A DNA stretch of 64,000 nucleotides. Origin: Undaria pinnatifida. Lineage: Eukaryota > Sar > Phaeophyceae > Laminariales > Alariaceae. Below the pieces are notes generated by a model. That model did not search any database, was not told the DNA's origin, and worked only from the letters and a program-made list of their open reading frames with translations. Below are positions 39,701-63,154 of this stretch, piece by piece (the stretch's first letter is position 1; every line of letters begins with the position of its first letter). The translations under genes and the position numbers were made by a program. The stretch covers positions 1,433,501-1,497,500 of the forward strand of contig JABAKD010000028.1 of the NCBI GenBank assembly GCA_012845835.1, read 5' to 3'.

Positions 39701-41154
39701 GAGCTATACTATCAGTATGATCGTGTAAGATGCTTCGAGCTGTCAGTTTAAGGGTGGTTGTGCGCGGGACTGTTGCAGTGAGCTGCCGCTCGCGACCATA
39801 CGACGGGGGGAGAGGGGGTTAATTCTTGGGGTATGCACAGAGTGACTCGTCAAAAAAGCGTGATACAGCAGGGTTTCCGTCTCTCCGTGCACACAAGCGT
39901 CACACGGGTTGCTTCGTACACTTTTGAGCGTGTAGAATCGAAACATAAACGACAAGCTTAGTAGGTGAGAAATACGAGAGCGTGCAGGCTACAAGCCTTG
40001 GGGGTGCTTGGCGTTTGACGCAGGGAGCAACCGACGCGCCAATAGCCCTACAGGCGGTAGCAGGTGCTTAAAACTATACACTAACATCCCGTCACATTAA
40101 TGTATGCCACCTTCACCGCCGCCTTCTCTCGTCCGCGTACGCTCTGTAAGATCCCATCACCCGCAACCGCAAAAACGTCAACAGCAACCTCAACGACTGT
40201 GAATCCGTTTCGGAACGCAACGCCGCCGCCCATAGTATTACCAAAGTTGAAGCTCAAACCTTTCTGAAAGAGAAAAAATCGACGGTTTTGGCACTGTTAA
40301 TGTTGCTGCTGTTTATCTCCCATCAGCTCACAGAACAAACGTGCCATCATCATCTCAATCTTCGTAGCCCGTGGTCAAGGAAGGCGTGTAACTACCCCCC
40401 GCTCTCCCTCCCTCCCTCCCTCCCACCCTGCCCAAAACAACTTACTATTGATAATTAAAAACGAAAACGAGCGGCCGGTGTATCAAGCAGCTTGCAACGA
40501 TGAGTCTCGACCTTAAAATTTGTCGAATTCACAGCTGACGTTGTTAGAATAGTATCATAACATTTCATGCACAAGGCCAGTTTGGAGGGCTCAGATCCGG
40601 GTGGCAGCAGGTCCGAGTGGGAGCGAGAGCTGGGCTTAAACCTGCAGAGTGATATTTACTGACCCGACCTGCATTTAGGTGTCAACAGTTCCCTCCCACG
40701 AGAGCACCATATACCTTCCCGGTCATGTCCCCGGAGACCGCCCAAAACCCGGTGGGCAAGAACTTAGCAACTGCTGTAGCCGTAGTCATGACAAATAAAA
40801 CACGATCCCGCCATACACTTGCAACTCCTTTCCCCTTCCCGTTCCCCCCCGCCGCCCTATATCCCTCTCCCGAGGAAACCACCGTACCTTCCCAGTAATA
40901 TCCCCCGAGGCGACCCAAAACCCGTTGGGCGAGAACTTGGCCACAGTAGTTTTTGAGTTGTGCCCGCGGTAGACGAACACATTAGTCGGGTCCTCCACAT
41001 CCCGGACTACGATGAACTTGCCGCTGGGGTAGATTATCTTGGGTTCCTTGGGGTGCGCTCCCAGGTGGAAGTTGTCCCCCCTCTCGGTAGAAGGGTTGGG
41101 CGCCCAGTGGCACTGGAAGGAGGGGTGGCTCACGCAGGGCTTGGTTTGCGCCAT
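36768..41154 (-). CDS. AIP1: actin-interacting protein 1 (WD-repeat protein)
   Basis: Four exons read downwards: 41154-40888, 39345-39166, 38830-38615, 38033-36768; all introns phase 0 and GT-AG; 642 residues, close to the roughly 600-620 usual for AIP1/WDR1. The start sits in a strong context (ACCATGG). The protein is a chain of WD40 repeats, as in the 14-repeat double propeller of the family. Diagnostic stretches: FVYRGHNSKTTVAKFSPNG, ASGDITGK; GGAIKDLAWGPESKRIV; FMWDTGSNLGE; GHTKRVISCDYRQKRPYRV, TASEDSRTIFYQGPPFK, HTNFVNCVRFSPDGSKIAT; SIYSLAWSPDSSSIATASAD. AIP1 works with ADF/cofilin in the cytoplasm to disassemble actin filaments. It is divergent from the channel gene, with about 1.2 kb between starts. 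Confidence 0.97.
39400..39640. repeat. CAG/ACCAG-rich simple repeat in AIP1 intron 1
   Basis: Short words AGTACCAGTACAGCAG and AACAGCAG repeated irregularly. Includes one TACCTGGTA word. Confidence 0.6.
40490..40550. repeat. dispersed repeat A, diverged right arm
   Basis: GCAGCTTGCAA followed by TCACAGCTGACGTT, in the orientation of the right arm of the complete copy at 41311-41492. Lies in AIP1 intron 1. Confidence 0.5.
40715..40785 (-). pseudogene. duplicate of the 3' end of AIP1 exon 1, inside intron 1
   Basis: About 70 bases match the last 68 bases of exon 1 (40955-40888), 173 bp away. The original encodes VAKFSPNGFWVASGDITGK and the copy VAKFLPTGFWAVSGDMTGK, with the frame open and a donor GTATAT retained at the same place. 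It is either a dead copy or a cassette exon repeating part of a WD blade. Confidence 0.8.
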
Positions 41155-41310
41155 GGTCGTCGTACGTGCACGTTGAGTATGGCGTGCCGTGAATCAGGCT
41201 TTACCTGCAATATTTAGGGTAGGGGGTTAGGAAATAGGCGGGGAGGGAGGGGGGTCAGGATTTGCCTCCTGTTTTTAGTGGGAGAGGATATTTTACCCAG
41301 ATACGTACAA

Positions 41311-42328: not shown

Positions 42329-45300
42329 GTGATGCTGTTGTTCACCAGAATCCGGAACGCTCGTTGGCGGGGTCATGCAACCGATCGCGTCGACGACCCC
42401 AGGCCGCCGAACGCGCCGCCGGCGGGAGCTCTCGACAGCACAGGCGGCAGCGTCCGCGCCGGCGTCGTCGTCGGCAACAACAACAACGATGCGTCTTCGC
42501 GGGGGAGACGTCGCACCATGCTGCTTAACCGAATCTCGCATCCGTCTCAATGGCGACGGGGATATCGCGAACAAAGACCACCCCCTACTCGGAAGAGGAG
42601 GGAGTCTGTCGATGTCAACGACCCCATGGAGCCCTTCTCTTCCGTCGCCGGCAACACTCAAGACGGAGCGATGCCACACGACGATGTCGCCGAACTTCTA
42701 TCCCGCAAGATTTATAAACACCACCTGCTATGGCACCGCCTCGCGTACGGCAAGCCCCGGCGACCTAGCGGGTACGCCCTGCAGCCGATGGGACCCGGTG
42801 GGACGCCGCTCCCCTGCGGCGAGCAACCCCCCAGCACGGGCCTGGCCCGTATCGCCTCGTGGGGAAGTCTGCCGAAAATTTGGGGGGGCGAGTGCGGGTC
42901 GCCGGTGGGGAACAGCGGGCACAGGCAGATAACTTCCATCGACTACGGGAACGCCGATGAAGTGGTGTTGAGCAGCACGCAAGAGATCGACGTAGATGTT
43001 CTGCTACCTGAAAACACGCTGCCAGAGGGGGCTCCGAGGTTTCTGTTGCACCCTTACGCCAAGCGCAAGGTAATACTATACCACCGGCAGTTAGTGGAAT
43101 GCATCCACCTACCACCCACCACGTGGTTTTCGTAGACTACCGTGACAATGGTTTATGTTTAGGGAACGTTGGGGTAATGGTTGTACAACTTTCTCTGTGT
43201 TTTCGATTGGTACACAGCAACATCGACAATCCTCCGTTATGTCTTCCACCCGCGTGGGAAAACTTCCCGATCATACGTCACTATCGCCCGCTGCTCCTCC
43301 TACGAGGCATTCTCTGCGTTCCCGTTCACTCGGCCATCCATGGCGATCCCTTCAGGGAGCTGGCTTGACGATGATACAAAATGATCACCGTATAGTTTGC
43401 GTTGCCTTTAACTTCCTTCCCGCTCAAAAACACGTGCCAGAGCATACATAGCCGCTGTTGAACAAAAAACACGCCGGTTGACGGCACTCTTGTCCCTTGG
43501 CGGACAGCCGCCAAGGAACCCCCGCACTACAACCAGTGCATTAAGTCTTGGAAGGTCTTGGGACAAGTAAAATATAGAGAGACCTTGACGCGCCGACACT
43601 AAACCGTCAGCTTAATATGTTTCCTTCGATATACGCCTCGTATATTTTGGCTTGTCTCACACAGGTGGCGTGGGATCTGTTCGTGGCAGCGATGATCGTG
43701 TACGGGTGTGTGAGCATCCCGCTCCGGATAGGTTTCGACCTGGGGACAGGCCCTGTCCAAATTATCGCTGACTCCGTGGTCGACGTCGCCTTCGTTGCGG
43801 ACATGGTCATGAGCTTCCGAACCGCTTTCCTCGCCCCTGACGGAGAGGTAGTGACAAACACAAGAGACATCGCGGTTCGCTACCTCAAGGGGTCATTTTT
43901 TATCGACTTGTGTTCGACGGTTCCCGTAGATTTGATCATGCTCTCGGCTGGAAACTCACGGAGCATCCTGCGTTCGACCAAGTTACTGCGGACGCTGAGG
44001 CTGCTGCGGCTGGCCCGGATTATGAAGTTGTCGAGCACCATCGGAGGGAAGGAGAATGAGCTGACGACCGTCATTCACCCCAGCTTGTGGGCGCTGATCA
44101 AGATGTTCGCCATGCTTCTGTTCATTGCCCATATCATGGGCTGCATGTGGCACTGGGTGGCTGTTCTCAGGTTCGAGCGTTGTTCAGCCCTGCTGGCTAT
44201 ATTTTTGCCCGATGAACGTTTGGGCGTTCAAGTGTTGACGTACGTGTGGTAGCCGCTTTCCTTTTGCAATCCGCGTTGCTTTGCCTTGTGCAGCTGAGCG
44301 GGTAACTTTTGGATGCCGCTGGGTTGGTAACTCACGTGGCACTACTGTTCTCGTTGGAATGGATTACCAGGTATCATCCTGCCGGGCTGCTTCAGTCGAT
44401 TTTTTACTAAACAAGCATGTAATTTCAACAAGCGCCGACGTTGAAGTTAGTTTTTGATCAAACAATACTGCGATTGACTCAGAGGTATTCAGGGTTGCTG
44501 ATACTTGTAGTGCACAGCTAGGGGATCGCGACGAAAATGTGCTGATGATGATGGGTGCTACGAGCCCCTAGGGTCATCTGTTGTTGTTCACTAGAATGCA
44601 CCCTATGTTGGGCTATTTCGTCCACGTGACCGTGGTGCCGACACGTTAACACCGGGATTATTACACGCCAATATGTGTGCCCAGCCAAGCTGCAATGACA
44701 GTCCTATTATCCAACGCACGCAGCACACGTGCATGGGTGCGATCGGAAAAAAGAAGTTACTTTCGGCCAATTGAATAGTGCGCAAGCTTTCCACGACACC
44801 CTTAAATTGTTCGTCCAATTGAACAGTAAAGGGAGGCTTTCCCACCCTATAACACCCTTTAAACATTTGATCAATTGAAGGCTGCACAAGTTTTTTCCGC
44901 CCACTAGCCCCCTTGAAATTGCTGTCTCTCTGTCCTCTCTCGTGTGCTTGAAGCCCCAACCAGATGACGTGGGTGGCCGCTTACGGGGTGGATGATACAC
45001 ATTGGGAGCACCAGTACCTGGTCTCGATATACTGGGCGTTCACAACGATGTGAGGCAACTGGTGGATGTTAGTGTCGGCCCTGCTATGTCGCGCCTTTTT
45101 CTACCGCACAAACAATCCCATAGTAATTCCAACTAGGGTGTTCCCAAAACGTGGGTGGAGTACTGAGGGGGTCACGATGCCTCTAGGTACACTGGGAGAA
45201 GGGAGGGGTGCGCCACGGCTTCATCGTTTCGTCCCTTCAAAGCCGACCCCACCTTAATTGACGAATGCTACTGATAGTAAGCAACTGAGTTAAATCGACA

Positions 45301-48300
45301 CACGACGCGTATGAAAATACGCGGAAGTGTGGTGAGCTAAAGCTTTATTTTTCCCCATCCGCCGGAGGATAAAAAAAAAAAAAAAAGCTACTGATAGTAC
45401 CAAAACTATACTGATAGCGCGGTAGGGGTGCGCCCGATATTTCTGAGGCTCCTTGGTCCCTTGAGGAGCTTTGCTGTACCGTACCCCCACTCAAACACAA
45501 CCAAAATTCGAAAAATTGAAAAGGTGCAACCCGATGAAGCAACCGCATGCCCTGCCTACCTACCTACCTACCTACCTACCTATACACGCAAGAAATATTG
45601 CAGAACAAAGATGGGCATTCCGACGATGATGGGCTTACCAAGGAGCCCCCGTCACCGAAAAAATGCGTTAGCCAGGAAATGCTGTGCAGATCGTGACAGC
45701 CGTCGATTGTCGTCCCCGAACCGTTGGGCCAAGTTGTTGAAAGGTTAACACGTTCGGGATAAACTTTAGTCTAAACAGTAAACTCTTTTGAGCTATGAGT
45801 AGTTGGTGGTACTTGTCCGGTTACTTGCGCGGTGGCTAACGGTGGCTAACTGTCTTTTGTTTGGTTTTCAAGAACTAGCTTGCGTTATTCTGGTCCCTGG
45901 TTATAGCTTGCAGGAACGTGTGTTTCTCCCTACTCAACTTGCGACACCCCCCGTGTTTCAAGCCAAACCACATCCCGCAGGGCAAATCCCGCTTCGTGCG
46001 ATCATGCAGCAGTACGAGTAGTACGTTGTTGCGGTCTGCGGTCGTTGCTGTAGCTGTCACTGCTTGCTTTCGTCACATTTTTGCCCCATATGATAGTCAA
46101 GTAAAGGGTTGACGCCGGAACAAAGTCGCCATCACAGCAAGGTTTAATTTGTTTCCGACACTGTTTTGCCCAAAGCTGTGGTTGCTGTCGCGTGTCGTCC
46201 AACGGAAAGAAGCGGGGCCACTGCTGTTTGCGTTTCTTGTTAAGCCACACTCAGAAACCAGGAGTAGACATTTGCCATCGAACGTGGTAGCTGGTCCTTT
46301 GTTGTCGGATGCTTTTGTTCGTGCACCTTAGCCCCTCTGCTAGCAGCCATTATTAGTTTGATTGCCATACGACACTGTGGAGCGTGAGTCCCAAAAAGGA
46401 CCAGGAAGGAACAACATCGCTTTTCGTGTTGTTTGTCGCGGCAGACGCAGAAGTCGGAAGCAGAATCTTTCAAATCCCAGGGATGGTCGCCGTGTTGAGC
46501 CCGCACTCAACGCCGTGGATTAATCCTTGGCGAGGCTCCCCTGCTTCGGGGCAGGGAGCCTCATCACAATCCAATACCTGTATTGAATAATTGGCGGCAG
46601 CGATAAACAATACCACAGTCATAGAACGTGGCGTATACGCCCCTGTTCATACGTAGGTACCAGGCAGGTGTTATCCTGTGCTGCGGGATAGCAAGGGTGC
46701 ATGGCGTGGCCACACGGGGAATGTCTGAGCTAAAACAAAAACGCTCCCCCCACGATTTCGTTTGGGCTCGTAATCGAACGAGGTATATAAGGCATTGTAA
46801 ATATGGGTACCAGGCATATGCTGTCCAGCGCTGCAGAATGGTGAGGGTGCGCCAAGGGTCACGAGGGGCAAAATGTTATTCAAACCCAAACACCACACCC
46901 ACAACTTGAGCTCACATTGTTTCCCTCCTCAGGACAACCGTGGGGTACGGGGATATCACTAGCGCCAACGATCTCGAGCGGGGATTTGCGATCGTGGGCA
47001 TGATCGTTGGGGCGACCGTGTTTGGTTACATCATCGGTAACGTGGCTGTTATCATGGAGAACTTCGACGTCGTGAACGCGATCGAGACCACCAAAATGAA
47101 CCAGATCAAGGACTGGCTGTACGACAGGAAGGTGCGCGTGGAAACCTACTTTCCCCAGGCAAAAACTCGGCTGACAACCGGGGGGGGGGGGGGATCTCTA
47201 ATACGCACGTAGGACACAGAGGCATGCTGGGGTAGAAGGAGCGCCTATTGTTCTGAGGGTCCTCACACGAGGAGCTTCACAGAGAATGTGTCCTACCAGG
47301 CACGATAAAAAATGAAGATGCAACGCGAATAGCAATCCCATTACCTACATCTGTGAAGAAGGACGGTGTAAAGCACAAGTGATGTTCCAACGATACTGAG
47401 TATAATGGTGTAGCCATCTGTTGAGGATCTCCGCCAGTCATCAAATATTTTTGCCAGAACGAGGTACAGTACCCCGACCGTAGTGCTCTTCTGCAAAACA
47501 CAGTTGGTGCACGTTTCAGAAATAATGTAATGCAGCCAATGACCAATACCTGGTATGTTTTGCTTTCTATCACTGTTGTGTGAGTGAGGACGCCGGGTTC
47601 GCACGGAAGGGCACCGTTGAAGGAACGCAAGAGATCACCAACATCTATAGCCCAGCCGATCCTAGCTGTGTTGTCAGGCCATTTGCGAAGCGTCTTCAAA
47701 TCAACCCAGTTTGTAACCCAACAAACTGCAGCCCGTGCGTCTTTTCGGCTCGCTATTAATTCCATGCCCTGTGCCCGGGAGTCTTTTTGTCGTGAATTTC
47801 TGTGAAACGCGGGGAGTCTTCAGGTCGAGAATTGCCATATTGACGCTAACCAGTTTTTTCAGGGTTGGAAGATGGCTGCTCCGGTAGCACTAGACCTGGG
47901 CCAACCGGTCACGGCATTTGGAGCACACACCTTTATGTCCAGTTTTTGTTTGTTGCTGCGGGAGACCGACTGCCCCATGGCACTTGAACCAACGCAACGA
48001 GGTTTCTTTGAGGCGGGGGGAAGTGTATTTGGCCCGCGGCGATTCAAGCAGGGCTGATGCGACCAGATCATCCTTCCACCCTTCCACCGTTCCTTGTTTC
48101 CGTCATTGGGTTAACGATACGCTAAGATGCTGGGCACAACAAATGCGCCTGCATCTAGTTGCACCGCCCACCACACTGCATGCAGGCCATTCTTACTCAC
48201 GAAGGCGGTGGACAATGTCGCAAATGTCACCTCTTTGGTCGGCGTCTCCGCGCCTCATAAGGGTTAACCAGCCAGGCCAGGCCAGGCCAGGTCAGGCTAC

Positions 48301-51300
48301 GCTATGTCAAGACAATAACAAACATGGCTTTTCACGGAACGGGTCACTTTTCGCGGTCGCGGGTTGGGTCGGACCGGGTCATCCTGACTACAACCCTTGA
48401 CCTTGACCCTGTCCACTTAATGCTGGCCCACGGAGCACCCTCGTCGTGCGCTAACGCAGTGATTATCGTCCTGTCGGTTCTGGGTTAAGGCGTGCGCCTC
48501 GGTAGGGGCGGACTTGAAAAAAAACAAAAGCTAAGGTTCTGCGCTTGATAATCTCTATACGATCCCCACAAGATGAATATTGAGGCTTAAATTAACCTGG
48601 TCGACAATCCCACGACCTGGAACTCTAACGATATTGGGAACCCCTTCATTCAGAAAATGTATCGGCCGAAAAGTGGTGCCCCTATCTTAGCAAGCGTCTA
48701 AAGTAACATCCTCCCTGCTCATCTTTTTACCGCTCTTAACCGCCGGCAACACACGGTGGTGCGCTCGCTGCCCGCAAATTTTTTTGCAGTTTCCCCCGGC
48801 GTTAGCGGATAAAATACGCCGCCAGTACAGTTACGTGTTCAAGGAGATGAGCGTGTTCGACAACTCGGAGATCGTGGACGTCATGCCCAGTGTCATGGCG
48901 ACTTCGCTCATCTACGCCCAGCACCGCGCGGTCGCGAAGGGGGTGGGCTTTCTGGCGAAGCGTCCCCCGGTTTTGGTCTGTCTACTGCTGCGGAAGATGG
49001 TGCCGTGCTTTGCAAGCGTGAGAGAGGGGAGCGGGGGATGTCATTGAGAGGGGGGGGTTGTATTCATTGGGCGGGGCGGGGGGGGGGCGAGGGGTGGTAG
49101 TCGTTGGCGGGTGCAATCACTGGGGGGGGAGGGTTGGGGCGGTGCCGTTCTTTGCAAACGTGAGAGAGGAGGCGGGGGGGGCTTACTCCTTATCGTTCAC
49201 GGCCGTTGTCTTAAGGCGATATCCCCTCGCAACCCTAGATTGCCGGGACGGAGCACGTCGGGTTTTCATGAACCAGGCAGACAGTGAGGGGGGAGGGGGG
49301 GGAGTGTAACTGTGAGAAGGGGAGGGGGCAAGGGTTTAGTTTTAAAAGTCTGCGAGAAATGGAAGCGTTTATTGAATGGCGTACGGTACAGTTGGTGATG
49401 TCTCTCTTAGACCCTGGTGGGTCGATTAACGGCCGAGACGGGACGAATGCTCTCCCGAATGATACCCACCCTGAAGGCATGCTTCGCCCTGTTGGCGTGT
49501 ACTGAGCAATTTTGTGAACGATGATAGCCCGATATCGCCGAAGCTGGGCTTTAGTGTTGCAGTGGGTACGGCAGAGGTTTCGAATTGTCAAAGCCGTGCT
49601 ACGTTTCTACGATGTCAGGATTGTGGTAATGGCAGCAAGACTGCGGGGGCAAACGGTTGTACCGTCCGTGGTCTAGTTTGAGGGTGAAACGGCTCTGTAC
49701 CAATCCATTCACGAATCAGAGCTACCACCAGTCAAGCGCGGCCTTCCGGTTTTGAATGTGATGGCGTACTCGCACCTAAGAAACAGTGTTTTCGTTAAGG
49801 AATTGAGGCTCGGTTCTCCACAAACATGGAAATCCGTTGTAACAAATGCAACTCAAACTAGCCAACAGACTTGGCTGTCTCAAGTCAGCTAGTCGGCTTC
49901 GTCGCCCACCGATTAGATGTTCAATGTGAAATCCTGCCAATTCGCAGCCGTACATACCATCCTTGCGGCAGATAACGCCGACATGACGAGGGTGACCTCG
50001 ACCGCGACGCTATCCCTCGCGCATTCCAGAGTCTGATGGTTGTATTTCGCCTGCTCTTCCCTCAGCTGTAACCCAATCAGCACTGCACGCACGTTCTTGG
50101 GGAATAACTACTTATATTTAGTATGGGGTCATGCTTGCAGTCGTAAAAGGGCAAATCCCCTTAAAACTGCTCGCAAGGGTTTGTTTACTTCAAAACAGCG
50201 TGGGGTCGTTTTTTGCTTTTTTAATGGGGTTCAGCAAAGGCTATCCCCAGGCTATCCCGGCGACAAACCATCTGACTGCGCCAAAACCGCACGCACTTTT
50301 TTATTGTTATTGTTGTATTTTGTTAGTCGTCCGATAAGTCCAGGCAGCGTGAGCTTCAACGTGGATCACTCTTATATGTGCAAGAATCTAAGGGAGAACT
50401 ACGAAAAAGGAAATCTACAATGCACAAAGTCAACCTACAAAAAGGAAACCTGCTCGTATGGACGAACTCTGCTTCGCTTCTGTGCCGATAGCATCGATCT
50501 ATCACACCTGATGTCCTTGCTCCACCCTGGTCATTATCGACCCCGATCGATGAAACGACGCGTAAATTCAGATCGGCGACGTCTTGTTCCTCGAGCACGA
50601 GGTGGGAGGGCATTGGTACATTCTGCGAAGCGGAAGAGTATCCTTCTACGTGTCCGTCTCCGCGCTGGAAAAGCAATCCGATTTGAAGTTCATGCGAAAT
50701 TTGTCGGATGATGGACACTTCGGGCTCACACCGGTCTTGCTCAACGTCCTCAACAGGTATGTGGGGGGGGAGCACGCTGTGAAAAGTAAGTTTAGAAATT
50801 TGGAAATTTGAAAATATGGAAATTTGAAAGTTGGAAAATTGCAAAAAAATGCAAAATTGGAAACTCGGAAATTTGGAAAATTGGAAGATTGGAAAGTTGA
50901 AATCTTGGAAAACTTGGAAAATTTGGAAGCTTGAAAAGTTTGGCAAATTGGCAAATTGGAAAGTTTTGGAATTTGTAAAATTGAAAATTTGTAAAATTTG
51001 TAAAATTTTGGAAATTTTGAAATGTGAAAAATTGGAGAAAGAAGCATTCCGACGGGATCTTGATGCGAAGCTCGTCGGACGACGTCTGACATTTTCGTTC
51101 CTCACGCCGGTCTTGCTCAACGTCCTCAACCTAGAACCTACTTTTTCTGAGACTTCTCACAGGCAAACCCCTGTACCACACTCAAACACTCTGATTGATG
51201 TAAAGCGAAACCGCAACCCGACAAACAGTTTAGTTCCATGGGCCTAGCTAGGTGCGGCATCCCACGGAACGGCTCGCACATTGTGGGTCCCAAGGTATCC

Positions 51301-54300
51301 GACCGGTTGAGCTCCTCCGGTGTGGAACTATGGGTTGGTACGATAATATTACGAGTATACTTGTTTCTTCTTCTACGGTTCCCTGCGACCCACATTCCTG
51401 GAACAGACATGCTTCATTATCTCTATCACGCACAGCAACCTTTGCTTTGTCTGTTATTTTGTTTTCTCGCGTTTTGCAGAGAGAGCTGCTGTACCCTTTT
51501 AGGAGTAGCGCGAATAAATATTGGTCGGGTTGCGCGAACGAATGTCTCCGAAGTCGTGTTTCAAGTGAGATGTTGAGCTCCTCGTGTCAGGAGCTAAGAA
51601 ACTTCTGAGAATCCGCTGCACCCCCAGCGTGGATTGACTCAGGTGTGACACGAAACACATCGTACAAACACGAGCGATGTTATTGCAACGACTTTGGGTA
51701 GTCCGACAGTTGAGCAGCCCCCATCAGTCAAAGGTGTTTTTGGCCTAAAGATTCTACTGCTATCGTATAACCCGGCTTTTCGTTCGAGCTGGGGTTAAAC
51801 TTGGGGAGACTTTCGCGTTCCTTAACGTAACGCCAGAAAGGGCTCATACAGGAGATGGGCGGTTCTCGCACCCTTCAAACAGTTATTGACACTATTACTG
51901 TCGTCGAATGGGCGTCTAGCGGCTACAGTATGGTCATCGATTGTTCCTCGAACCCGCTAAGGCGCCGTTTTTCTCCATCAAAACAAGCATATTTGTGCGA
52001 GATAAACGGACAACATAACAACGGCACCAGGCATCGCTCGCCGACAGCATGCCGTTGAAAGTGTTATGCGGCGCCACATGACGCCATCGAAAGTGCTTCT
52101 GTAACGCGATTGAAAGCGAGAGGTAGGTTCGACCGCGGTCTTTGTTTGTATTTTTGTTCCTGCCAAACGGCCACCGCTACCGATCGAAAAAGGATACAAT
52201 ACCAGCATCATTCTGAACGTGCAACAGGCATCATTTGCCAATATGGTGCCGTTAACCTGACGCCCTCAGTTTTTTGGCGTCGAAATTGTTTTTGCAGAGC
52301 GATTGAACGAGAGGGGTTCGGCTATGTGTTTTTCTTTCCCCCGTCGAAACGGCTACCGTTGTCCATAGAAGTAGGCGTATTCGTGGAAGATAACGCCAAA
52401 GAAACAACACGAGGCATCATTTTGAACGTGAAATGAACGGCAATAGGCATCATTTTCCAACTTGATGCCGTCAACAGGACACCGTCAGCATGACGCCGTC
52501 GAAATTGTTTTGCAGCGCGATTGAAGGAGAGGGGTTCGACCACCTGTTTCTCTTTCCCCCGGCGAAACGGGCACCGCTACCCATAGAAGTGGGAGTATTC
52601 GCGGGAGATGACGGCAAAGAAATAATACGAGGCATCATTCTGAACGTGAAGCAAAAGGTACCATAAGAATATGTTGCCAACATGATGCCGTCAACATGAC
52701 GCCGTCAGCATGATGCCGTCGAAATTGTTTTGTAGCGCGATTGAGCGAGAGGGTTCGGCCGTGTGTGTGTGTTTTTTTTCCCAGCGAAACGGCCACCGCT
52801 ACCCATTGAAATAGTTGTATTCGCGCGAAACAGCGTAAAGAAATGGGAACCAGGGATCGTTCTCAGCGTACAAAAAAATGGTGCCATGTGTCTTTCGTCA
52901 AGGTAATGCCGTCAACACGCTGCCGTCGGAAGTTCTGTTATCTGTGAAGCGAAAAAACGAGGTGTTCAGCCGCGTTTTTTTTTTTTTTTTTTTTTCCAGC
53001 GAAACGGCCACGGCCACCTCTCCCACCGATCTGCTGGTGGTAAAGAAAGACGACCTTGTGGATATCTTGCACCAGTGGCCGGAAGTCATGGCGGAGCTTT
53101 TGGATGAAGCCGAACGCCACTTTCTGGAGGTCAAGGTGAGAGAGTAGCATCATGGGGCAATCGATCACATACCCCACCCCTACCCGTACGGACTTTATCC
53201 CGGAAAAAAACACGCTTGTTTTTCTTTTTTACCTGGGCTATTTTTCGATTGACCATACTAAATTTATACGCGTATTTGTCATATACCTGGTGTGCAATAT
53301 TGCCCGAAGACTGATTCTACGATAGCCTCCCCAAAAACCAGCGATTTTCTTCAACGAACGTTTCATGGCTGCTCGACACAAGGAAGGATGCAATTGAAAA
53401 CAAAGTATCCATACATCTTCTTATGTGCAAACGCCTATCGATCGATGACGTCGGAGTGCCGAGGGACAGCGTTCTTCAGGGAATGCGACCGGGGGAGCTG
53501 GTTTTGAAACCGGCGATCTCGTGAAAGAGAAGTTGGGGGGGCTACCGTAGAACGACCGTGAACTCCATAATTTACCTGTTTGACGTGTGAGGGAGATTAT
53601 ATAGATGCAAAGATATTATGCATTCTTGCCATTGCTTGTAGGGTGGGAGGGAAGGTCTGTATTTTTCCCACGTCTATTATCCTGTTCTCACTGGGTTGCT
53701 CTTCTCGAAAGGGAATGATCACTACCGTCGCACAGCATCGTGCAGTAATCGCGACCAAACGCTCCAACCATCCATTCATCCACCCCTCGAAGTCGGGAGT
53801 GTTCCGATTGATTCCCCCTTTTGCCCTCAGCAACTTTCTGGACAAACCGTGGTCGCAGGTGTCTTCCCTTCTCCCCCCTCAGTAGGCGGTCGAGAACCAA
53901 GTGGTAGAGTGTACGTATACAGCGAATTCCTGCCTCTTTGAGTTCTCCGCGTTTCACAAGAACCCTAGGACAATCTTGAACGCTCGACGCCTTGCTCATT
54001 AGTTGTAGCAGCTCGGAGAGTTATCCATTATCTCCTTCTTATTTTTTCGTCCGTCTCATCTAGTGTCTTTGCTCTACTTCTCCAGCTCCCCCCCTGTCGT
54101 GACTGAACTTCGGGTCACATAGCGGGCACTCCCCCCCTCCGCACCTAGGTAGCCCTTTAGTACCCGCGTATTGCAACCAAGACAGTGAAGAGTGCAAAAC
54201 AGTGGCTACTCCGATTAAGGAGCACCCCGTGACAGGCCGTTTCAAGCACTCCTAAATCTCTAGTGGGGAACATTTAGCTTTTAGTATGAGCGAGATATGC

Positions 54301-57300
54301 CGATCTTGACTGCTCTTAAGCCCCGCAAGGTCTTATCTTGGGCGCTCTTCAATCGGGGTACCCACTGTATTGTCGAGCATCTAGGAAGACCGTGAAAAAA
54401 ATACTAGTAGTATCGTCATCCTGCACGCGCTTCGTACAGCCCCTTGCAATGCGGTTCATGCACAATCCCTACCGCGGGACAGTAGTGGTCTCCCTCTGTA
54501 ATTCCGGTATGTGCACTATAGAGGGAAACACCTGCATTATAGCGTCAACCAGCACTACTCCGCATACTGACACTACTGGTTGTTTCCATCTGTGCCAAGC
54601 GATTTCACATACACTATAGTGGGCAGTCGGCACTATAGAGGGACCTCTATTGCACATAGTTTGGGTTTCTTCGTGTGGCCGATGATGTAGTCGTCGTTTT
54701 GTTTCGACATTTTCGTTTCTGAAGCCCCCAACAGGTAACTATTGACGACCTCTCTCCCGGATTTAACAACACTTGGCTATGGCTATAACTCGAGCTGCTT
54801 CGTCCACCGACGCTGTAAATCGCCTTTCTTTTCCATCACCCCCCCCGCCCCCGCCTTTTAAAGTTCAAAAAGGTCAAAATAACCCTCTATAACCACCCCA
54901 AAAAACGCTCTACACGAATCCTAACCAAGCACATTATCCCCAACAACGTAGGCGCGATATGACGAGTTCTACGACCAGGGTAGAACTTTTGGGTCAAGAA
55001 GGTTCTGATTGACGGGGCTCCCCGATTGAGGAACTACGCGAAAAAAATCGTTGGAACACCGTATTGTCGTGGCTTAAGTTAACGTTTTGTTGGAGCACCG
55101 TTTTTTTGTGGCTTAGATTAACGTTTACATTTCGGCGAGTCACCAGGGTATATATGGAAATTATTCGGTGGCGTTGAGTTAAGCTTTTCGCTTTTCTCAA
55201 ACCTCGTTTTCGATTGAGGTATAATGGATACCCCGATTTAAGAGGTGTCCAGGCTAAGAGCATTCGGGACTTAAGAGCGGTCAAATCGGCATGTCACGCC
55301 TATACTAAAAGCTATATTTCCCGCTGCAGGTTAGAGTAATATGTAGTTAGGAGCGCTTGTTTGGGCTTATCACGGGGCGCTCTTAAATCGGGATACCCAC
55401 TGTATAGAGCCCACTCAATCGAGGAGCCTCACAAAATTACAAGTGCGTCCCTGCCGTAGCATTCGTCTAGTTCTGACGGGGTTTCACGACCTACTTTCCT
55501 GCTGTTGCCAAACACCTGGCAGAGGTTCCGAGAGTCGCTGAAGCCAGCGGCCCCAACACGACCCCCCGCTCGACGGGGCCGCTACAAGCTAAAACCGAAA
55601 CCGGGCGCTGCTGCAGCGGTGGCAACACCATCGTCAGGTCTCACTAACTTGTCATCCGTTCCTCAGAACGTAGTCTCCGGCAACATCGCTCTTGAAGGGA
55701 CGCTGTTGAACGCTGGTGACCCAATCAGCGGAAAAGGTGGTGACAGCGGTGGTGGTGGTAGTGGTGGTTGTGGTGGTGGTGGTGGTGGTGGTGGTGGTGC
55801 TATTGCTAATGGCGGCGGTGGCGGTGGAGGCGGTGGTGGTAGCGGCTGTGGCGACGGTGATGGTGATGGTGGTGGTGCTAGTGGTGCGAGTGATGATGGT
55901 GGCGGCGTTGGTGGTGGCGTTGGTGGCGGCGGTGATGGTGGCGGTGGCGGTACTAGAGGTGGCAGCACAAATGGTGGGGGTGGTAGTGGCGGTGGTGATA
56001 CTACCTCTGTGCGGGTCGTCGAAATTTTCGAAAGCGTACACGCAGATAGCCGACGGAGTGGCACCGGCGCCACCACTAGAACCGGTGTAGGAGAAACTCT
56101 GCTAGTGGTGGACGCGGCGGAAGAGTCACCCTCAACAGCAACAGCAAGCCAGCCTTATACACCCGGAATGACGGAAGAAAGCGGGCATTTAGAGAAGAAC
56201 TTTGGTTCACCCGGGATAACCGAAGGAATCGGCTATTCAGAGGAGAAACGAGAACTAGAAAATGATGATGACGGCGCTCTGAGCGGGGGAGAAGCGTCAA
56301 AATCACCCGGGACAGCTACGGGGTCGGCTGTGACAGCCATTAGATCACCCGTGACAGCTGCGAGATCACCTGCGACAGCTTCATCGAGAGCCGCGGAAAG
56401 TAGTGTCGACCACGCGGGGGAAGCAAGGGGTGGGGATGAGGAAGCGCGTGCGGCAAGGCTGACCGCAGTAGTTAGGGCAGTTTCAGTGGGGGGGGCGTTC
56501 GAGGAATCATCGAGCGCGGAACAGACGACGAGTGAAACAGCGGACACACCAACAGGGGCAGCCGCAGCAGCAGCGACAGCCGCACTAGGCACGGCAGCAG
56601 CAGCAGCACCTAATTCTCCTGAATTTCGACGAGATTCTGATCCTTTCCGCCCGCCACCAATCGTCACCGGCAATGTTGCGGGGATGGTTGGGCGTGACAT
56701 CAAGCGAGCCACGGCCAGCGACGTTTTCACCGATAGGGGCAGGGGCTTCGATTCTGCAGACGACCCAGAAAGAATGCGGGGATGCTTTGTCGCCAAAACT
56801 TTCTCTCCGAGTGACCTCGGCATGGGGGAGCTCAGGCGCGGCAGCAATACCGCTGCTGTCGGCGGAAATTCTCCACTGATGTACGGAAAGCTGCAGAAAG
56901 GGTCTTCTATCAAGGGTCCCGGCGTTTTCGTGGTGGGTGACGGTGGGCGAAAGGGCAGCGTGGAGGAGGGGTACGGGTTCGAAGAAACTCAAATGGCGCT
57001 TGGGGGCGTCATCCCCGACCGGTTGTTCGCAATGTCGGGCATGCTTCACCCAGAGGCTACCCTGAAGGTGAGTGAGTGGTGTGCTCTTGCCACATAAATT
57101 GAGTGACACTTTGTTGTCTCTCTTGCTATGTCAAGCAACACTTTTTATGCTCGCCCTCGAACGTCAAACATAATTAGTGCCGTGACGTATTATTAGTATA
57201 AGTGAACTACATTACGCCCTCTCCATGTATATCGTCTGCTTTGACGTCAAAACATAATAAATTCATTCAATTAGTATAAGTACACATTTTTTTGGGGCGT

Positions 57301-60300
57301 TGCATCGCCTCCCTTGAACATAGAAATCAATCTCAAATTAGTATGGGCTTACTAAATTTTGCCACCCCCGCCCAATACATCGCACGTTGGACAATCACTG
57401 TTATTGTTGTTTGCTCGTGCTATGTCCGGCAACGCTTTATTGTCTCTTGCTATGTCAAGTGACACGTTAATTCTCTCTTACTATGTCAAGTGCCACCTTA
57501 TTCCCTCCCTTACTAAGCGGCGCATTCTTTAGTGCACTATTCAACTGACAAGCGTCCCCGGGCGACATTCGATTGGACCGAAAATATAAGGCTAGGTTGG
57601 GACGGAGCCCCCCAGGCGCACCTCGGGTCGAGAGCTTTAGCTCTAAAATACGCGCGGACTAGGATCGCGTGTTACAACAGCCCGTAAGAGTACTCGAAGA
57701 GGGCTTCTAAAGGAATCGGTTTGTCGTCTGGAAATACGATGCGCATTACACGTCTGCTAGGAATTTGACAGCGCGGAGTATATAGTCACGCCATTCCGGT
57801 ACCTTCGCACGCGTCCCTCCAACATAGCATGCCACAAGGGCTAGTTTGAACAGGGTTGTCGGCAATCTTTTCCCATGAAAAAACGTATAGCGACACCATC
57901 CCCGTACCTTGCCATCATGCTTGTTACGCACAGCTGGCGTCCTTTCCGTGGCTGCGAACTTACATATCTTGCACGCATCGGACACCAACCAGGCTCCTCA
58001 CTTCAAGAGCTCTATTGGAGAAAAATAAACTGCTCCCATTTCCAACTCCTAAATGATCATATTTTAACTCCAAGAGCTTTGTCCCCATGTCGGGAGTGCG
58101 GTGCTAAAAGGGGTAACAACTCCACGGCCTGGGTACACAACCAAACGAAAATTCAAAGCAATAACTGAAATTTTGCGTCCGTCCGGACATACGTAGCGCG
58201 CCTCAAAGGGCTGCTCTGAGCAGGGTAGACGGCAGAGTTTTCCCCTTGAAGCGCGGCGGGACCGCCTCTAAGGCACATGTGGACCATTCGGCGCTCTAAA
58301 CAGCATACCACGTGACACGTGCTGATAGAAGAAAGAGTAGCACTTGTTTTTCCGGCCAAAACGTTTCAGGCTGAAGGAGCTCCTTCACTCGCGAACTACG
58401 CAGCAATGAACATGGGTAGGATTAATTCCTTTTCGCGTCGCCCTCAATGCAAGCAACTACGAAGGAAAGCCCTACACAGCATTAGAACACTGTTCGTTCG
58501 TGATGTACGACACCGTTTGTTGAATACCGACAAACAGGCCGTCCGATTGTTCACCGAGTTGCGCATTCGTTATTTTTTGCTCAAAGTCAGGTCTTGGGTG
58601 AGAGGTGCAGAGCTCTTCACGTGTAGAGCCTCAGAGCATATACCCGCACCCTTGTAGTAGCAGGCATCTCGTGCAAGCATGGTCACAGGACCGCGGTCTC
58701 AAAGACAACCTTGCCACCAAAATCCGTCTTTGAGGGGTGCCGACATGAGCAATCTCACCCCCCCCCCCCCCCCTCCATGTCACAAGGCTTAGTTTGGGTA
58801 GGTGATTTTGTTAACCTTCACCAAAAAGGTGGGTACCCCGGTTTAAGAGCACCCTGTGACAAGCCGAAACAAGTGCTCTTAACTGCACGTTGCTCGTATC
58901 TGTAGTGGGAAATATGTAGGTTTTAGTTAAGCCGTACGTGCCGATTGTGACCGCTCTTGAGTCCAAAGCGCTCTTATCTTGCGCGCTCTTGAATCGAGAC
59001 ACCCACTGCTGTAGTAAAAAAGACCAATACGCTCTAATACCTTACCTAACAATTGGCGTCGCCGGCACCATTAGTCTTTTTTTAATCGTGAGTTCAAACC
59101 TCACCGTTCACCACATACGGCATTTAAGGATCTCCCCATGTCGAACCTGGAAAGTACTGGTCCTGGGTATCCAGAAATTTGAACCGCTTGCATTTGGCAC
59201 ACGTCCGCTCGTATATCCGACGCACGTTCATCATGCCGTTCCAGGAAAGGAGAGTGTTACAATACTCAGATTGTGTGGGTGATTCGTTGACCTTTTTTTC
59301 AGAGTCAAAATGGACTACCAGGGGTAATAGAATACCAGGTAACCTCTATGTACTATCTTGTTTTATTCACACCAAATCGCTGACAGGACTTTTACGATGA
59401 TACAGTGCTGAGAAGCAAAGTTCCGGCAAAATTCACGTGATATATATGCTGGCAGACTACAGTGGCGTAGAGTAGCGCATCGGTATGTTCCGCATACCGG
59501 AAGAAGCTCGCGGCGGCGAGGAGTCAGTGCACGGGCATTCATCGTGCATGTCCCGAAATTTCCAGTATGCCGTTGCTTGACATCTCCCATTTCCCATACA
59601 CGTAGAATTTCCTAACTTATACTTGTATCACGTCCGCGCCTTGCTACAAGCGACTGAGGCTACCGTAGGGGGGACCACCTACATTTTCACTACGAGTTAC
59701 GGCGTTTGAGCCACTCGGACGAGTGACTCTGTACGTCACTGCGAAAATACTATACTTGTACAGTAGACGATTTTTGTTTTGGTGCAGCGTAGCTTACGGT
59801 ACCATCGCGGATTCATATCGCAAAATTTTAAGCAGCACGAAGGCTTATTACTGCAAAGGAACAGGGGGATCGTTCGCGCGAGTGACCCCGAGCCACCGAA
59901 AAAATTGCCTCCCAAAGTGAAGGAAGCCCACCTATCGTAGCTTTGCTACAAGCATCAACAAGCACCCCTTGACAGCCATTAGCTGCACACCCCGTCGGCT
60001 CGTTCCAGGTCTTGTGGGACCTCTGGGTGTCCTTGGTTATCGTTTGGTCGGTCGTGGAAGTTACGTTTCGGATCGGTTTCGACCGGCCGGCGGAGGCCGG
60101 CTGGCTGATTTTTTCGTACTGCGTGGACGGGCTTTTCTTGGTGGACATGCTGGTCAGTCTGCGCACGGCCCTCGTGACGAGGGACGGGATTGTGGTGGCG
60201 AGCCAGAAGCAGGTTGCTGTGGCGTATTTGAAGGCGAGTGGACTCTTCTTATTTGCTATCATGCTTATTGTATTGTTACGACTGATTCTACGATAGCCCC

Positions 60301-63154
60301 CCCCGAAACAAGAGCGAGTTTCTTTCAACATACGTTTCATGGCTGCTCGACACGAGGAAAGATTATATTAAAAATGGGTCTTTAACTATTTTCTTGTTTT
60401 CCTAGGACATCGGGGTGGCAAGGGGCCCCGTATTTAAGGAGATACGGCCGGGAGCTGGTTCCAAAACCAGCGATTTCGTTAAAGAAGAGTTGAGGGGCTA
60501 CCGTAGAACGACAGATTATTACTACAATTATATTATTAATATTTTCTCCCCAGGGCTTTTCACGGGTCACGAGCCGGCTTCCAGAAACTCAATGGGTCGA
60601 GCCGGGTCGGGTCAGGAGTTCTTCAATTTTCGCGGGTAGGGTCGGGCCACCGTGACCCGGTCCGACCCATTAGAAATGATCCGATCCGTGATAAACCCTG
60701 TTTTTTTCCTATCCGACCCATGAGGAATTATCCGCTCCGTGAAAAGCCGCGTTCCCCCCCCCCCCCATCCAACAAGTGTGCATGCAGCAGCATGAGAGAT
60801 TTCAAGGACGATCATTTTCATGACAAAAATTTTTCCCAGAAAAAAGTAGACAGCCCCAAGATAAACCAAAAAAAATGCGGAAGGCGTGTTATGCAAGCGA
60901 TAAAGGCAGTAGCATTTTCTTGGGGCCAAAACGAACATTTGTTTTTTAAAACGAACATTTGTTTTTTGGTAAACGACGGGAGGACTCATTACTAGCTCAA
61001 AATCGTCGGAATGCAATTTCTTGTTCTGCAAAACGATTCATTTTGCGGACCTAGAACCACGGTTTTGTTGTTTTTCCATCGGATTGCACGTTCAGTTTTG
61101 CTCGTTAAAATGATAATTTTGGCTCGAAAATGTTCATTTTGGCTGCTCCTTAAATTGTAGATCCTCAGAAAACAAAAACGCTCTATTCGTTATGTCGTCC
61201 CGAAAAAAAGATGCAGACGAAGGAAAAGGGTGGAAAGGCTGAGTGAGCATGTGGGTACAAGCCCTTCTGCCCTCGTCTTGACTCCCCTCTAACTCGCGTG
61301 GGCGTGCCACCGCCACGCAAAAATCGCTCTTTTGTCGCAGGGTTGGTTTTTTGTGGACATTGTATCGACCGTCCCGTGGGACCTGATCGTGCTCAAGATC
61401 GCGGTGGGGAACCGGACGGCCGCGTCGTGAGTTGCATTTTTTTGTATGAAGGCCTAGTGTGACCGTGCTCCGAGTGGGGGATGCGTGGTTTTGGTCGGTG
61501 TTGGGAAGCGTGCCCCTCATGGGTTCCGGTGTCTTTGGTTGGTATCTCCTCATGGCTAGCTGAATAGACTCAAAGCTTATGCATTATCTCCCTATATAGA
61601 ATACTAAAAGACAGACATAACAGAGCTGCAGGGTAGCGCAGGGTAGCGTAGGGCAGTGCAAGGTAGTGCAGGGTAGAGAGATGAGGGCCGTCCTGCTTGT
61701 CCCATCATCTTCACCTACATTATCGCCCATCTATGATGGCCTTGACGTGAATGTGACATCTAATGTCACGTGGTTTCACCTCAACCATGACTTGGTTTCA
61801 CGTCGAATCTATAAACTATCCTTCTACGACGGGCACTCCATTACATTAGAGTGACGTAAATTGCAAGTACATATATACCGGTAGGTAATTGTGCGTGGAG
61901 AAAATAATGAGCTGAGGCGTGCTAATTCATAACTTTTAATTAACTTTCACCTTCGAGAGAGGCAACGGAAATTAATTCATGTATTGCACTGCATTCTTTA
62001 GAGCGGAAATTGTTTAATTCCGCAACCCCCTCAGTTGCGGGTGGCGAAATTTAATGAATTCATACTTTGTCACGACATGGATTTTTCTTTATGCCAGAGG
62101 GACCATGCTTCACAGTGATACTTGTAGTGGAGGGGGGCGGGGGAGGAGCGTACCCATTTGTAGCTTGCCTTAGCCATTTGACCATTGACCACGCATCCCC
62201 TTCGAGAAAGAAGGTGTCTCTATTATTAGTAGGAGCAGTGCCTGACTCGAAAGGCATACGCGGTAATTAATGGCGAAACGACTAAAGCACGCAAAAAAAA
62301 AAAAATGACTGCCCCCTCCTCTCCCCCCCCCTCCTCGCTCCCCCTCCCCGCGCCCCCTGCCGATGCCGACGTTGTCGCCGTTGACACCGCTGTCGCTGCC
62401 GCTGCCACGACGGCTGCGAACAATTTCGTCCAACGTGATGCTCGATATATAAACAAGGTCGACGAAGCTGCTTCGCTCGCTGCGCCTTGTTCGTCTGCTG
62501 AGGCTGATCCGTTTGCTTAAGCTGCCGGACTTCTTGGAAGAGTGGGAGAATAGTTCTCCGATGGGTCCGTCGAGCGCGAGGCTTGGCCGGCTGCTGGTGA
62601 TCATGGCTTTCTCCGCGCACATCAACGCTTGTGTCTGGTGAGAGCTGCCATGCCCTGTCGCAGGTTAACCATGAACCCTAAGTAAGTGCTCCTCTCTCCT
62701 CTCACATCACATCAGTGCATCATCACATCATCACATCATCACATCACATCATCACATCACATCATCACATCATCACATCACATCATTACATCATCACATC
62801 ATTACATCATCACATCACATCATCACATCACATCATTACATCATCACATCATTACATCATCACATCACATCATCACATCACATCATTACGTCATCACATC
62901 ATCACATCACATCATTACATCATCACATCATCACATCACATCATCACATCACATCATTACATCATCACATCACATCATTTCATCATCAAACCACATCATC
63001 ACATCACATCTTCACATCACATCATCACATCACGTCATCACATCATCACAGCATCACCATCATCACAGCATCACCGTCATCACAGCATCACCATCAACGC
63101 GTGTGTCTGGTGGGAAGTGGTCCTGTTGCACACTTTAGAGACATCGCACCCGTG
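42329..63154 (+). CDS. multi-module voltage-gated K+ channel with CNBD-like domain (3' partial)
   Basis: Twelve exons seen: about 42329-43069, 43665-44170, 44954-45049, 46933-47131, 48790-49017, 50572-50756, 53000-53135, 55523-57067, 60009-60233, 61341-61426, 62458-62637, 63086-63154. Phases agree at every junction; about 1,400 residues are visible and the gene leaves the window. Order: cytosolic N-terminus; module I (S1-S6, C-linker, CNBD-like); 515-residue Gly-rich linker; module II S1-S5. Both modules start after a matching splice site (LHPYAKRK|VAWDLF and LHPEATLK|VLWDLW), which ties them into one gene. Family: KCNH/CNG-type six-TM channels of the plasma membrane; TVGYGD indicates K+ selectivity. 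The start codon is uncertain: Met at 42329 or 42521 are both possible, and a second frame is also open over 42375-42932. Confidence 0.88.
43665..47131 (+). CDS. channel module I: S1-S6 and pore (exons 2-4)
   Basis: Exon 2: S1 WDLFVAAMIVYGC, S2/S3 acids in DSVVDVAFVADM, S3 FFIDLCSTVPVDLI, S4 RSTKLLRTLRLLRLARIMK with a basic residue every third position, S5 ending HIMGCMWHW. Exon 3: pore turret and helix, DDTHWEHQYLVSIYWAFTT. Exon 4: filter TTVGYGD, S6 GATVFGYIIGNVAVIM and the start of the C-linker (TTKMNQIKDWLYDRK). The S4 pattern implies voltage sensing. The filter is cut by a phase-2 intron after its first Met codon bases (AT|G). Confidence 0.93.
45555..45586 (+). repeat. CTAC microsatellite
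   Basis: About seven CTAC/CTAT units in channel intron 3. Confidence 0.85.
45820..45990. repeat. dispersed repeat B, inverted copy
   Basis: CTTGTCCGGTTACTTGCGCG, TTTTCAAGAA, CAACTTGCGACACCCCCCG and TTTCAAGCCAAACCACATCC follow the order of the reverse complement of 1597-1720. A 12-base segment GGTGGCTAACGG is locally doubled. Confidence 0.65.
47200..48700. other. gene-free part of channel intron 4
   Basis: Minus frames at 47277-47765 and 47890-48087 are open but unrecognised; the latter has CxxC-like pairs. A short GGCCA tandem run lies at 48272-48290. No supported feature. Confidence 0.35.
48790..53135 (+). CDS. channel module I: C-linker and CNBD-like domain (exons 5-7)
   Basis: Exon 5 encodes the helical C-linker (FPPALADKIRRQYSYVFKE). 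Exon 6 has beta-roll strands (GDVLFLEHEVGGHWYILRSG). Exon 7 ends with the C-helix (DDLVDILHQWPEVMAELLDE). Where CNG/HCN domains have FGE...LL...R(T/S)A, this reads FGLTPVLL and ETATA, so the Glu and the phosphate-binding Arg are absent. Binding of cAMP/cGMP is therefore doubtful, as in KCNH channels. Confidence 0.85.
49196..49290. repeat. dispersed repeat C, copy 4
   Basis: GGCCGTTGTCTTAAG, CCCCTCGCAACCCT, TTGCCGGGACGGAGCACGTC and AACCAGGCAGAC match the copies at 19276-19590. G-rich runs flank it in both places. Confidence 0.7.
50785..51035 (+). repeat. degenerate GGAAATTT-type minisatellite in channel intron 6
   Basis: About 250 bases of 8-12-base words such as GGAAATTT, GGAAAATT and GGAAAGTT starting about 30 bases after the exon 6 donor. 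It gives a spurious Phe/Ser/Lys-rich frame on the minus strand. Confidence 0.85.
51062..51130 (+). pseudogene. duplicate of the 3' end of channel exon 6, inside intron 6
   Basis: Matches the last 65 bases of exon 6 (50692-50756): GATGCGAA, GTCGGA-GA, then CTCAC-CCGGTCTTGCTCAACGTCCTCAAC with one mismatch in the last 29 bases. The donor is replaced by CTAGAACC, so it cannot splice as the original does. Confidence 0.8.
51965..52999 (+). repeat. tandem array carrying copies of the exon 7 acceptor region
   Basis: About five units of roughly 180-220 bp leading straight into exon 7. The marker AAACGG-CACCGCTACC lies at 52165, 52347, 52565 and 52785, and the exon's own AAACGGCCACGGCCACC at 53002; intervals are 182, 218, 220 and 217. 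Each unit holds a pyrimidine tract ahead of the marker, and in the last intronic unit this even ends in CCCAG|CGAAACGG, like the true site CCAG|CGAAACGG. GCCGTCGAAATTGTTTTGCA and GAGAGGGGTTCG are further shared words. Confidence 0.88.
53315..53552. mobile_element. MITE G, copy 1
   Basis: 238 bp, inverted ends TTCTACGATAGCCTCCCC and GGGGGGGCTACCGTAGAA. Shares CAACG/AACATACGTTTCATGGCTGC, TCGACAC-AGGAA and GAGCTGGTT-(T/C)-AAACC-GCGAT with 60286-60508. Confidence 0.8.
54200..54367. mobile_element. MITE H, copy 1
   Basis: 168 bp. Left end CAGTGGCTACTCCGATTAAG, right end CAATCGGGGTACCCACTG; interior GGAGCACCCCGTGACA and CTGCTCTTAAGCCC shared with copies at 55222-55402 and 58829-59008. Confidence 0.75.
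54484..54646. mobile_element. MITE, AGTGGTCCCTCTATAG family, copy 2
   Basis: Ends AGTGGTCTCCCTCTGTA and GGCACTATAGAGGGACC; interior TGACACTACTGGTTG-TTTCC and GTGCCAAGCGATTTCACA match 16408-16579. Confidence 0.7.
55222..55402. mobile_element. MITE H, copy 2
   Basis: Left end ATGGATACCCCGATTTAAGA, right end TTAAATCGGGATACCCACTG. Ends about 120 bases before exon 8 of the channel. Confidence 0.75.
55523..57067 (+). CDS. channel inter-module linker (exon 8)
   Basis: A single 515-codon exon: basic start (RFRESLKP, RRGRYKLKPKP), about 85 residues of Gly with Ser/Asp/Cys encoded by GGT repeats (55735-55996), an acidic/Ser/Thr region with SPVTAARSPATA repeats, an Ala run, and a more conserved-looking end leading to HPEATLK just before S1 of module II. 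Antisense frames here are repeat artefacts. Confidence 0.82.
57085..57530. repeat. degenerate tandem repeat in channel intron 8
   Basis: Units of about 35-40 bp with CTATGTCAAGTGACAC and TTATTGTCTCTTG recur at both ends of the block (57110-57145 and 57418-57510). Between them AATTAGTATAAGT words repeat three times. Confidence 0.6.
58829..59008. mobile_element. MITE H, copy 3
   Basis: 180 bp; left end GTGGGTACCCCGGTTTAAGA, right end TTGAATCGAGACACCCAC. Best-paired copy of the family after copy 2. Confidence 0.75.
59655..59943. repeat. dispersed repeat F, copy 2 (MITE-like)
   Basis: Begins GCTACCGTAGGGGGGACC and ends CCACCTATCGTAGC, an imperfect inverted pair. TTGCTACAAGC occurs on each side (59644 and 59943) and may be a target duplication. 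Aligns with 31125-31400. Confidence 0.65.
60009..63154 (+). CDS. channel module II: S1-S5 (exons 9-12, partial)
   Basis: S1 LWDLWVSLVIVWSVVEV, S2 YCVDGLFLVDMLVSLRTAL, S3 GWFFVDIVSTVPWDLIVLK, S4 STKLLRSLRLVRLLRLIRLLK, S5 RLLVIMAFSAHINACV. Residue-by-residue similar to module I, e.g. DIVSTVPWDLIVL against DLCSTVPVDLIML. Exon 9 ends in a GC donor (AAG|GCGAGT at 60234). The pore and filter of module II lie beyond 64000. Confidence 0.88.
60286..60508. mobile_element. MITE G, copy 2
   Basis: 223 bp, inverted ends TTCTACGATAGCCCCCCC and GGGGCTACCGTAGAA, 52 bases after the exon 9 donor. Confidence 0.8.
62697..63085 (+). repeat. CACATCAT microsatellite filling channel intron 11
   Basis: About 390 bases of ATCACATCATCACATC variants between the exon 11 donor and the exon 12 acceptor; the acceptor CACAG itself is one of the last repeat words. 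The + frames rich in His/Ile/Thr/Ser over it are artefacts. Confidence 0.92.

Follow-up and report, generated by a model that had tools for sequence, protein, structure and literature searches.

A locus of the brown alga Undaria pinnatifida (contig JABAKD010000028.1) probably holds a single gene for a tandem CNBD-channel, made up of a complete first module (module I), a linker and, at minimum, the beginning of a second one (module II). We put the probability of this reading, which rests on the DNA sequence, at about 55%. The window, that is the whole stretch of DNA analysed, is 64,000 nucleotides long. In our splice model, exons E1 to E11 join into a single uninterrupted frame of 1366 codons. 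Nine of the ten introns are of the GT-AG type; the exception follows E9 and has a GC donor, AAG/gcgagt, in good context (slashes mark splice boundaries). The earlier note had proposed one gene: the uninterrupted frame from E1 to E11 agrees with it, but splice and coding signals are mixed and fusion is only the likelier of two readings. Splice sites were scored with generic eukaryotic base frequencies, not trained on the host organism, and donor percentiles are relative to the 4062 GTs of the window (12 donors scored, that of E5 left out). The exons are the following:

E1, 42332..43069, plus strand: N-terminal exon, 246 aa if the putative start codon is at 42332; open, phase 0; ends HPYAKRK/; donor AAG/gtaata.
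E2, 43665..44156, plus strand: S1-S5 of module I; weak donor TGG/gtggct (77.7th percentile).
E3, 44964..45049, plus strand: turret and pore helix of module I; weak acceptor (74.0th percentile).
E4, 46933..47131, plus strand: TTVGYGD filter, S6 and C-linker start.
E5, 48790..49017, plus strand: C-linker and first part of the CNBD; donor GCAAGC/gtgaga.
E6, 50572..50756, plus strand: CNBD beta roll and first half of the phosphate cassette (FGL...); weak acceptor (39.1st percentile).
E7, 53000..53135, plus strand: second half of the cassette (SETATA) and CNBD end; donor AAG/gtgaga.
E8, 55523..57067, plus strand: low-complexity exon encoding a 515-residue linker, or else the opening exon of another gene; a further in-frame acceptor lies at 55667; ends HPEATLK/.
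E9, 60009..60233, plus strand: module II from S1 to the start of S3; GC donor AAG/gcgagt.
E10, 61341..61426, plus strand: S3 of module II.
E11, 62458..62637, plus strand: S4-S5 of module II; weak acceptor (53.6th percentile).
Possible E12, 63092..63154, plus strand: S5 end and turret (INACVWWEVVLLHTLETSHPW); 5' boundary uncertain; donor GTG/gtaagt (99.7th percentile).

Module I (E2-E7, 43665-53135) is a complete CNBD-channel unit whose matches are far beyond chance. Joined in phase, its exons encode 442 residues comprising S1-S6, the TTVGYGD filter, a C-linker and a CNBD, the anatomy described in the earlier note. Pfam searches returned Ion_trans (6.9e-28, with a query lacking the end of E5), Ion_trans_2 for the E3 and E4 region (6.5e-13) and cNMP_binding for E6 and E7 together (6.3e-10). 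Among solved structures the best match is LliK, which aligns to residues 1-434 of the 442 (E 1.3e-36), followed in order by HCN4, HCN1, SthK, CNGA3, CNGA2, and KCNH1. Six transmembrane segments, a basic S4, a K+-type pore loop, a C-linker, and a CNBD, all features of the CNBD-channel superfamily, are thus found together, in one chain according to the splice model. Within the module, the least certain join is E2/E3, where donor (77.7th percentile) and acceptor (74.0th percentile) are both weak. The phase of E3 fits E4, and E3 is colinear with LliK. E2 matches the profile described below at 1.6e-47, a value to be read knowing that this profile includes module I itself, and E5 matches it at 1.4e-13; the LliK alignment is colinear across the E5/E6 join. 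It had been considered that an exon was absent between C-linker and CNBD, and that the frame shifted before E6; extending E5 to 49017 ruled both out.

The label given to the module varies with the extent used, since KCNH1 comes first (6.7e-29) when S1 to C-linker is searched alone and LliK when the full module is used. An N-terminal PAS domain defines the KCNH channels (EAG, ERG). No PAS was found in the 246-residue N-terminus encoded by E1, where none of the Pfam families matched at E values up to 1, although an upstream exon might precede it. The full module, being closest to LliK and then to HCN and SthK, points away from KCNH, and the KCNH name first attached to this locus was not retained.

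The phosphate cassette of module I reads HFGLTPVLLNVLNSETATAT, where that of LliK reads FFGELALVMDAPRSATVRAT; this comparison depends on the E6/E7 splice and amounts to two replacements, E to L and R to N. Module I lacks both the FGE Glu and the RTA/RSA Arg characteristic of CNG and HCN cassettes. The cassette Glu contacts the cyclic nucleotide phosphate. The highly conserved Arg is described as crucial for cyclic nucleotide binding (PMC4749565, partial text). Because the phosphate-holding Glu and Arg are replaced by Leu and Asn, canonical binding of cAMP or cGMP is not expected of this first CNBD. It would fold but, having lost its cyclic-nucleotide contacts, act as a structural coupling domain and not as a cAMP/cGMP sensor, a role comparable to that of the CNBD in KCNH channels or of the silent CNGK repeats.

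A second S1-S5 set is encoded by E9-E11 (60009-62637), perhaps continued by the turret, as the earlier note had described. It matches Ion_trans (Pfam, 1e-14) and HCN1 (5.3e-18), and is identical to module I at 72 of 166 positions (43%). In an alignment referred to here as A1, identity to module I is 45% for module II, 34% for the HCN1 piece and 28% for the KCNH1 pieces. The two modules also share a phase-0 intron at the same place, HPYAKRK/VAWDL in module I and HPEATLK/VLWDL in module II, in the common context HP....K/V-WDL already pointed out in the earlier note. Counted by eye, each S4 has seven basic residues. Module II has in addition a GC-AG intron after AYLK (60233), at a place where module I has none. 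Of the at least two complete-type modules claimed in the earlier note, one is borne out, module I; module II reaches S5, with the turret as a possible addition. When all six frames of the window were searched with a profile, there were seven matches above the inclusion threshold, all on exons of the list above, and no second pore was found. The profile, built from ten loci and module I itself, matches module I partly by construction. It might miss a second CNBD, because the two exons of the first, E6 and E7, also fell below threshold (E values of 1.5 and 3.5). Two repeat starts are seen in the window.

In a tree of 14 rows, the two modules are sisters (support 94/90), on branches of about 1.0-1.1 changes per column each, which places them about 2.1 apart. 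The rows comprise the two modules with animal and bacterial channels, including eight of ten confirmed loci (L003 and L010 were below the length cut). As plant, CNGK and other protist rows are absent, all that the tree establishes is that neither module is as close to any of its animal and bacterial channels as to the other module. The ten loci were confirmed among 82 matches to A1 in genome_contigs; all are titled as bacterial metagenome-assembled genomes and none as a eukaryote. No match was confirmed among the 24 to A1 in viral_contigs, the 45 pattern matches to module I in genome_contigs, or the six to module II and seven to module I in viral_contigs.

Whether the two modules are joined in one mRNA turns on the signals between E7 and E9. 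E7 contains no stop before its donor, which stands at the 99.9th percentile of the 4062 GTs and is the strongest of 52990-56200; an unspliced E7 is for this reason an unlikely last exon. E8, the 515-residue linker exon of the earlier note, is an open exon of 515 codons (55523-57067) with two acceptors in the right phase, at 55523 and at 55667, the second scoring at least as high as the first. The acceptor at 55523 is ordinary (score -0.75, 86.3rd percentile), being equalled or outscored by 26 other AGs in 53140-56200; those of E3 (74.0th percentile), E6 (39.1st) and E11 (53.6th), all exons supported by homology, are weaker still. At 2.4 kb, the gap between E7 and E8 is of a size with the introns elsewhere in the model (0.6-2.9 kb). 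E8 has no in-frame ATG before 56168, 215 codons from its start. In 4000 shuffles, the chance of an open frame ahead of this ATG was 0.08 for 55460-55747, 0.18 when counted from 55523, 0.43 from 55667, 0.046 for the glycine run and 0.13 for 56012-56167; beyond it, the chance was 0.012 for 56168-56614 and 0.032 for 56615-57067. The open frame of the glycine run, a (GGT)n stretch at 55748-56011 encoding 88 residues, mostly glycine, counts little, since it is a simple repeat, and 55667-55747 is likely open by chance. The uninterrupted frame, the E7 donor, the paired acceptors of E8, its open sequence before the ATG and the size of the gap all argue for one gene, as does the precedent of oomycetes and dinoflagellates (PMC7576140, partial text). 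The lasting adjacency of two modules that are old relatives would also be easier to grasp within one gene.

Two neighbouring genes on the same strand, descended from an old tandem duplication, constitute the alternative that survives best, and we regard it as a serious if less probable contender. Gene 1 would consist of E1-E7 and finish either in a small additional exon or in a retained end, giving an ordinary one-module CNBD-channel of about 690 residues, and gene 2 would begin in or just before E8 and give another. An acceptor at 53883 scores 7.6, far above the -0.75 of E8, and splicing there leads to an immediate stop; further acceptors in 53140-56200 would terminate gene 1 after 3-99 codons, and reading E7 through without splicing adds VRE before a stop. 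A first gene ending in an unspliced E7 has to contend with the E7 donor, the strongest of 52990-56200. Codon use gives this alternative further support. GC3 is 0.71-0.83 in the nine conserved exons and 0.72 in E1; along E8 it runs 0.56, 0.25, 0.49, 0.45, and 0.63, remaining at 0.25-0.56 up to 56614. The synonymous codon score of E8 is likewise intron-like over some 70% of its length, as far as 56614, and departs from this only in the last 151 codons. The codon table was trained on 1026 codons, taken from the WD40 gene described below and from the conserved exons of the channel; the scores of E2, E4, E7, and E9, which belong to the training set, are consequently not independent, whereas E1, E8 and the non-coding stretches were scored independently. 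Starts at 56168, 56684, and 56774 would give gene 2 N-termini of 300, 128, and 98 residues, of the order of the 246 of E1. Furthermore, E1 and E8 are both long, disordered-looking and end at the same intron, as first exons of separate genes would. Against this, E8 is open ahead of its first ATG for longer than most shuffles permit, and no homology was found between the last 120 aa of E1 and the last 150 aa of E8, their alignment score being reached by 277 of 500 shuffles, so that E8 is not visibly copied from E1. A single fused gene has, for its part, two further points against it: the E2/E3 join is weak on both sides, and neither the pore nor the CNBD of module II was seen in the window. It is improbable that module II, instead of being a working module, is a partial copy in decay or a product of misassembly, as the GC donor of E9, the weak E11 acceptor (53.6th percentile) and the (CATCA)n array and duplicated S5 coding piece that interrupt the end of S5 might suggest, because E9-E11 have no stop or frameshift, GC3 values like those of module I (0.75-0.82) and a conserved set of S4 charges.

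The (CATCA)n-type array spans about 390 bases (62705-63096) and is flanked on each side by a copy of the stretch that encodes INACVW, the end of S5 in module II. Local copies are found elsewhere in the locus: four of 22 exon boundaries (the 3' ends of E5, E6, and E11 and the 5' end of E7) are recopied within 1.5 kb, mostly in the adjoining intron, in the following regions:

Recopied exon-boundary regions: 48999-49169; 50725-51130; 52151-53029; 62620-63115.

The intron before E7 contains a 218-base tandem repeat (52214-52825, 2.8 copies), and copies of the start of E7 recur through this array. Among sampled, overlapping 50-mers, a second copy was found for 1 of 179 exon-interior ones without E8 (27 of 326 with the E8 repeats), 46 of 617 intronic ones and 125 of 1672 from positions 1-42000 of the window. 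The boundary copies may have been left behind when introns arose or grew through local duplication, their excess over intronic DNA being weak. Upstream, and apparently head to head with the channel gene, a WD40 gene occupies 36771-41193 on the minus strand (Pfam matches of 8.3e-36 at 36771-38147 and 3e-11 at 38267-38920, and a sub-threshold one of 3.8e-4 at 40789-41193); it presumably resembles the actin-interacting protein AIP1/WDR1. Three of ten other open frames of the window searched against Pfam gave WD40 (two above the cut-off and one below), and the remaining seven matched no Pfam family above it. Rfam and tRNA scans found nothing.

Compared with known channels, module I resembles the bacterial CNBD K+ channels LliK (PDB 5v4s, which we take to be this protein) and SthK (PDB 6vxz) over residues 1-434 and 2-436 of its 442, respectively. 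These have a single module, and LliK keeps FGE and RSA in its cassette. HCN channels (PDB 6gyn, 9bc6) match over residues 3-424/425, from S1-S6 to the CNBD. An HP before S1 is an HCN feature that is present here; unlike HCN, the locus has a TVGYGD filter and no FGE/RTA cassette. The KCNH structures (PDB 8eow, 9chp) are the top match for S1 to C-linker only, and differ in a PAS domain, which was not found in the N-terminus here, and in a full-module match weaker than those of LliK, HCN, and SthK. The CNBD of KCNH channels does not work as a cNMP switch (PMC7576140, partial text).

The earlier note, which compared the locus with one-module channels and the four-repeat CNGK, overlooked a precedent. 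Two-repeat tandem CNBD-channels were published in 2020 from dinoflagellates and from oomycetes, themselves stramenopiles, with repeats at most 30% identical, and the available portion of that text reports none for phaeophytes or diatoms (PMC7576140). There, and by expectation at the Undaria locus, two 6TM-CNBD repeats with an R/K-rich S4 lie in one polypeptide, and the oomycete channels have a full C-linker and CNBD, as does module I (PMC7576140, partial text). The modules differ from these repeats in being 43% identical over S1-S5, against at most 30%, a comparison that is not like for like, as the region compared is unstated in the available text (PMC7576140). Moreover, at the Undaria locus the fusion is predicted, and the second repeat is traced to S5 within the window. 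CNGK of sperm has four repeats and occurs in animals and one choanoflagellate; in the sea urchin channel, gating depends on just one cGMP site, located in repeat three (PMC4749565, partial text). It shares with the Undaria locus CNBD modules in series with a K+-type filter, and zebrafish CNGK repeat 2 has also lost the conserved binding Arg; the window shows one module and the start of another in place of four repeats (PMC4749565, partial text). Among the matches listed from the open-access literature, judged by titles and the starts of abstracts, no tandem CNBD-channel of a brown alga was found. A Ca2+ channel survey with brown algae among its subjects uses neither "cyclic nucleotide" nor "domain repeats" in the available text, and names CNGC twice, in other contexts (PMC11085791); the available text of a Phytophthora zoospore paper names CNBD once and no tandem CNBD-channel (PMC12223298).

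Under the preferred reading of one fused gene, a single polypeptide would carry a voltage-gated 6TM-CNBD module of K+ type, connected through a long, low-complexity linker in the cytosol to at least the beginning of another such module. Each module would contribute one voltage sensor and one quarter of the pore, so that the four-part channel would take two polypeptides, or a single one with four modules. The conservation of basic residues in S4 of both modules suggests gating by voltage, and the channel would presumably be selective for K+. Unless its transcripts prove different, the fusion, which we favor, would make the locus a further tandem CNBD-channel of an already published sort. Only tentatively, and with doubt, do we propose the stronger view that a photosynthetic stramenopile has a multi-repeat CNBD K+ channel whose fusion took place separately from that of the oomycete ones (43% against at most 30% identity), with a non-binding first CNBD, a linker of about 500 residues and possibly additional modules beyond the right end of the window. 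If there are two genes, the locus is an ordinary pair of duplicated channel genes. If there is one, it would represent one more separate fusion of channel modules, bearing on whether such fusions had a single origin or several in stramenopiles and alveolates, and it would provide a natural channel with a forced order of modules and a silent CNBD.
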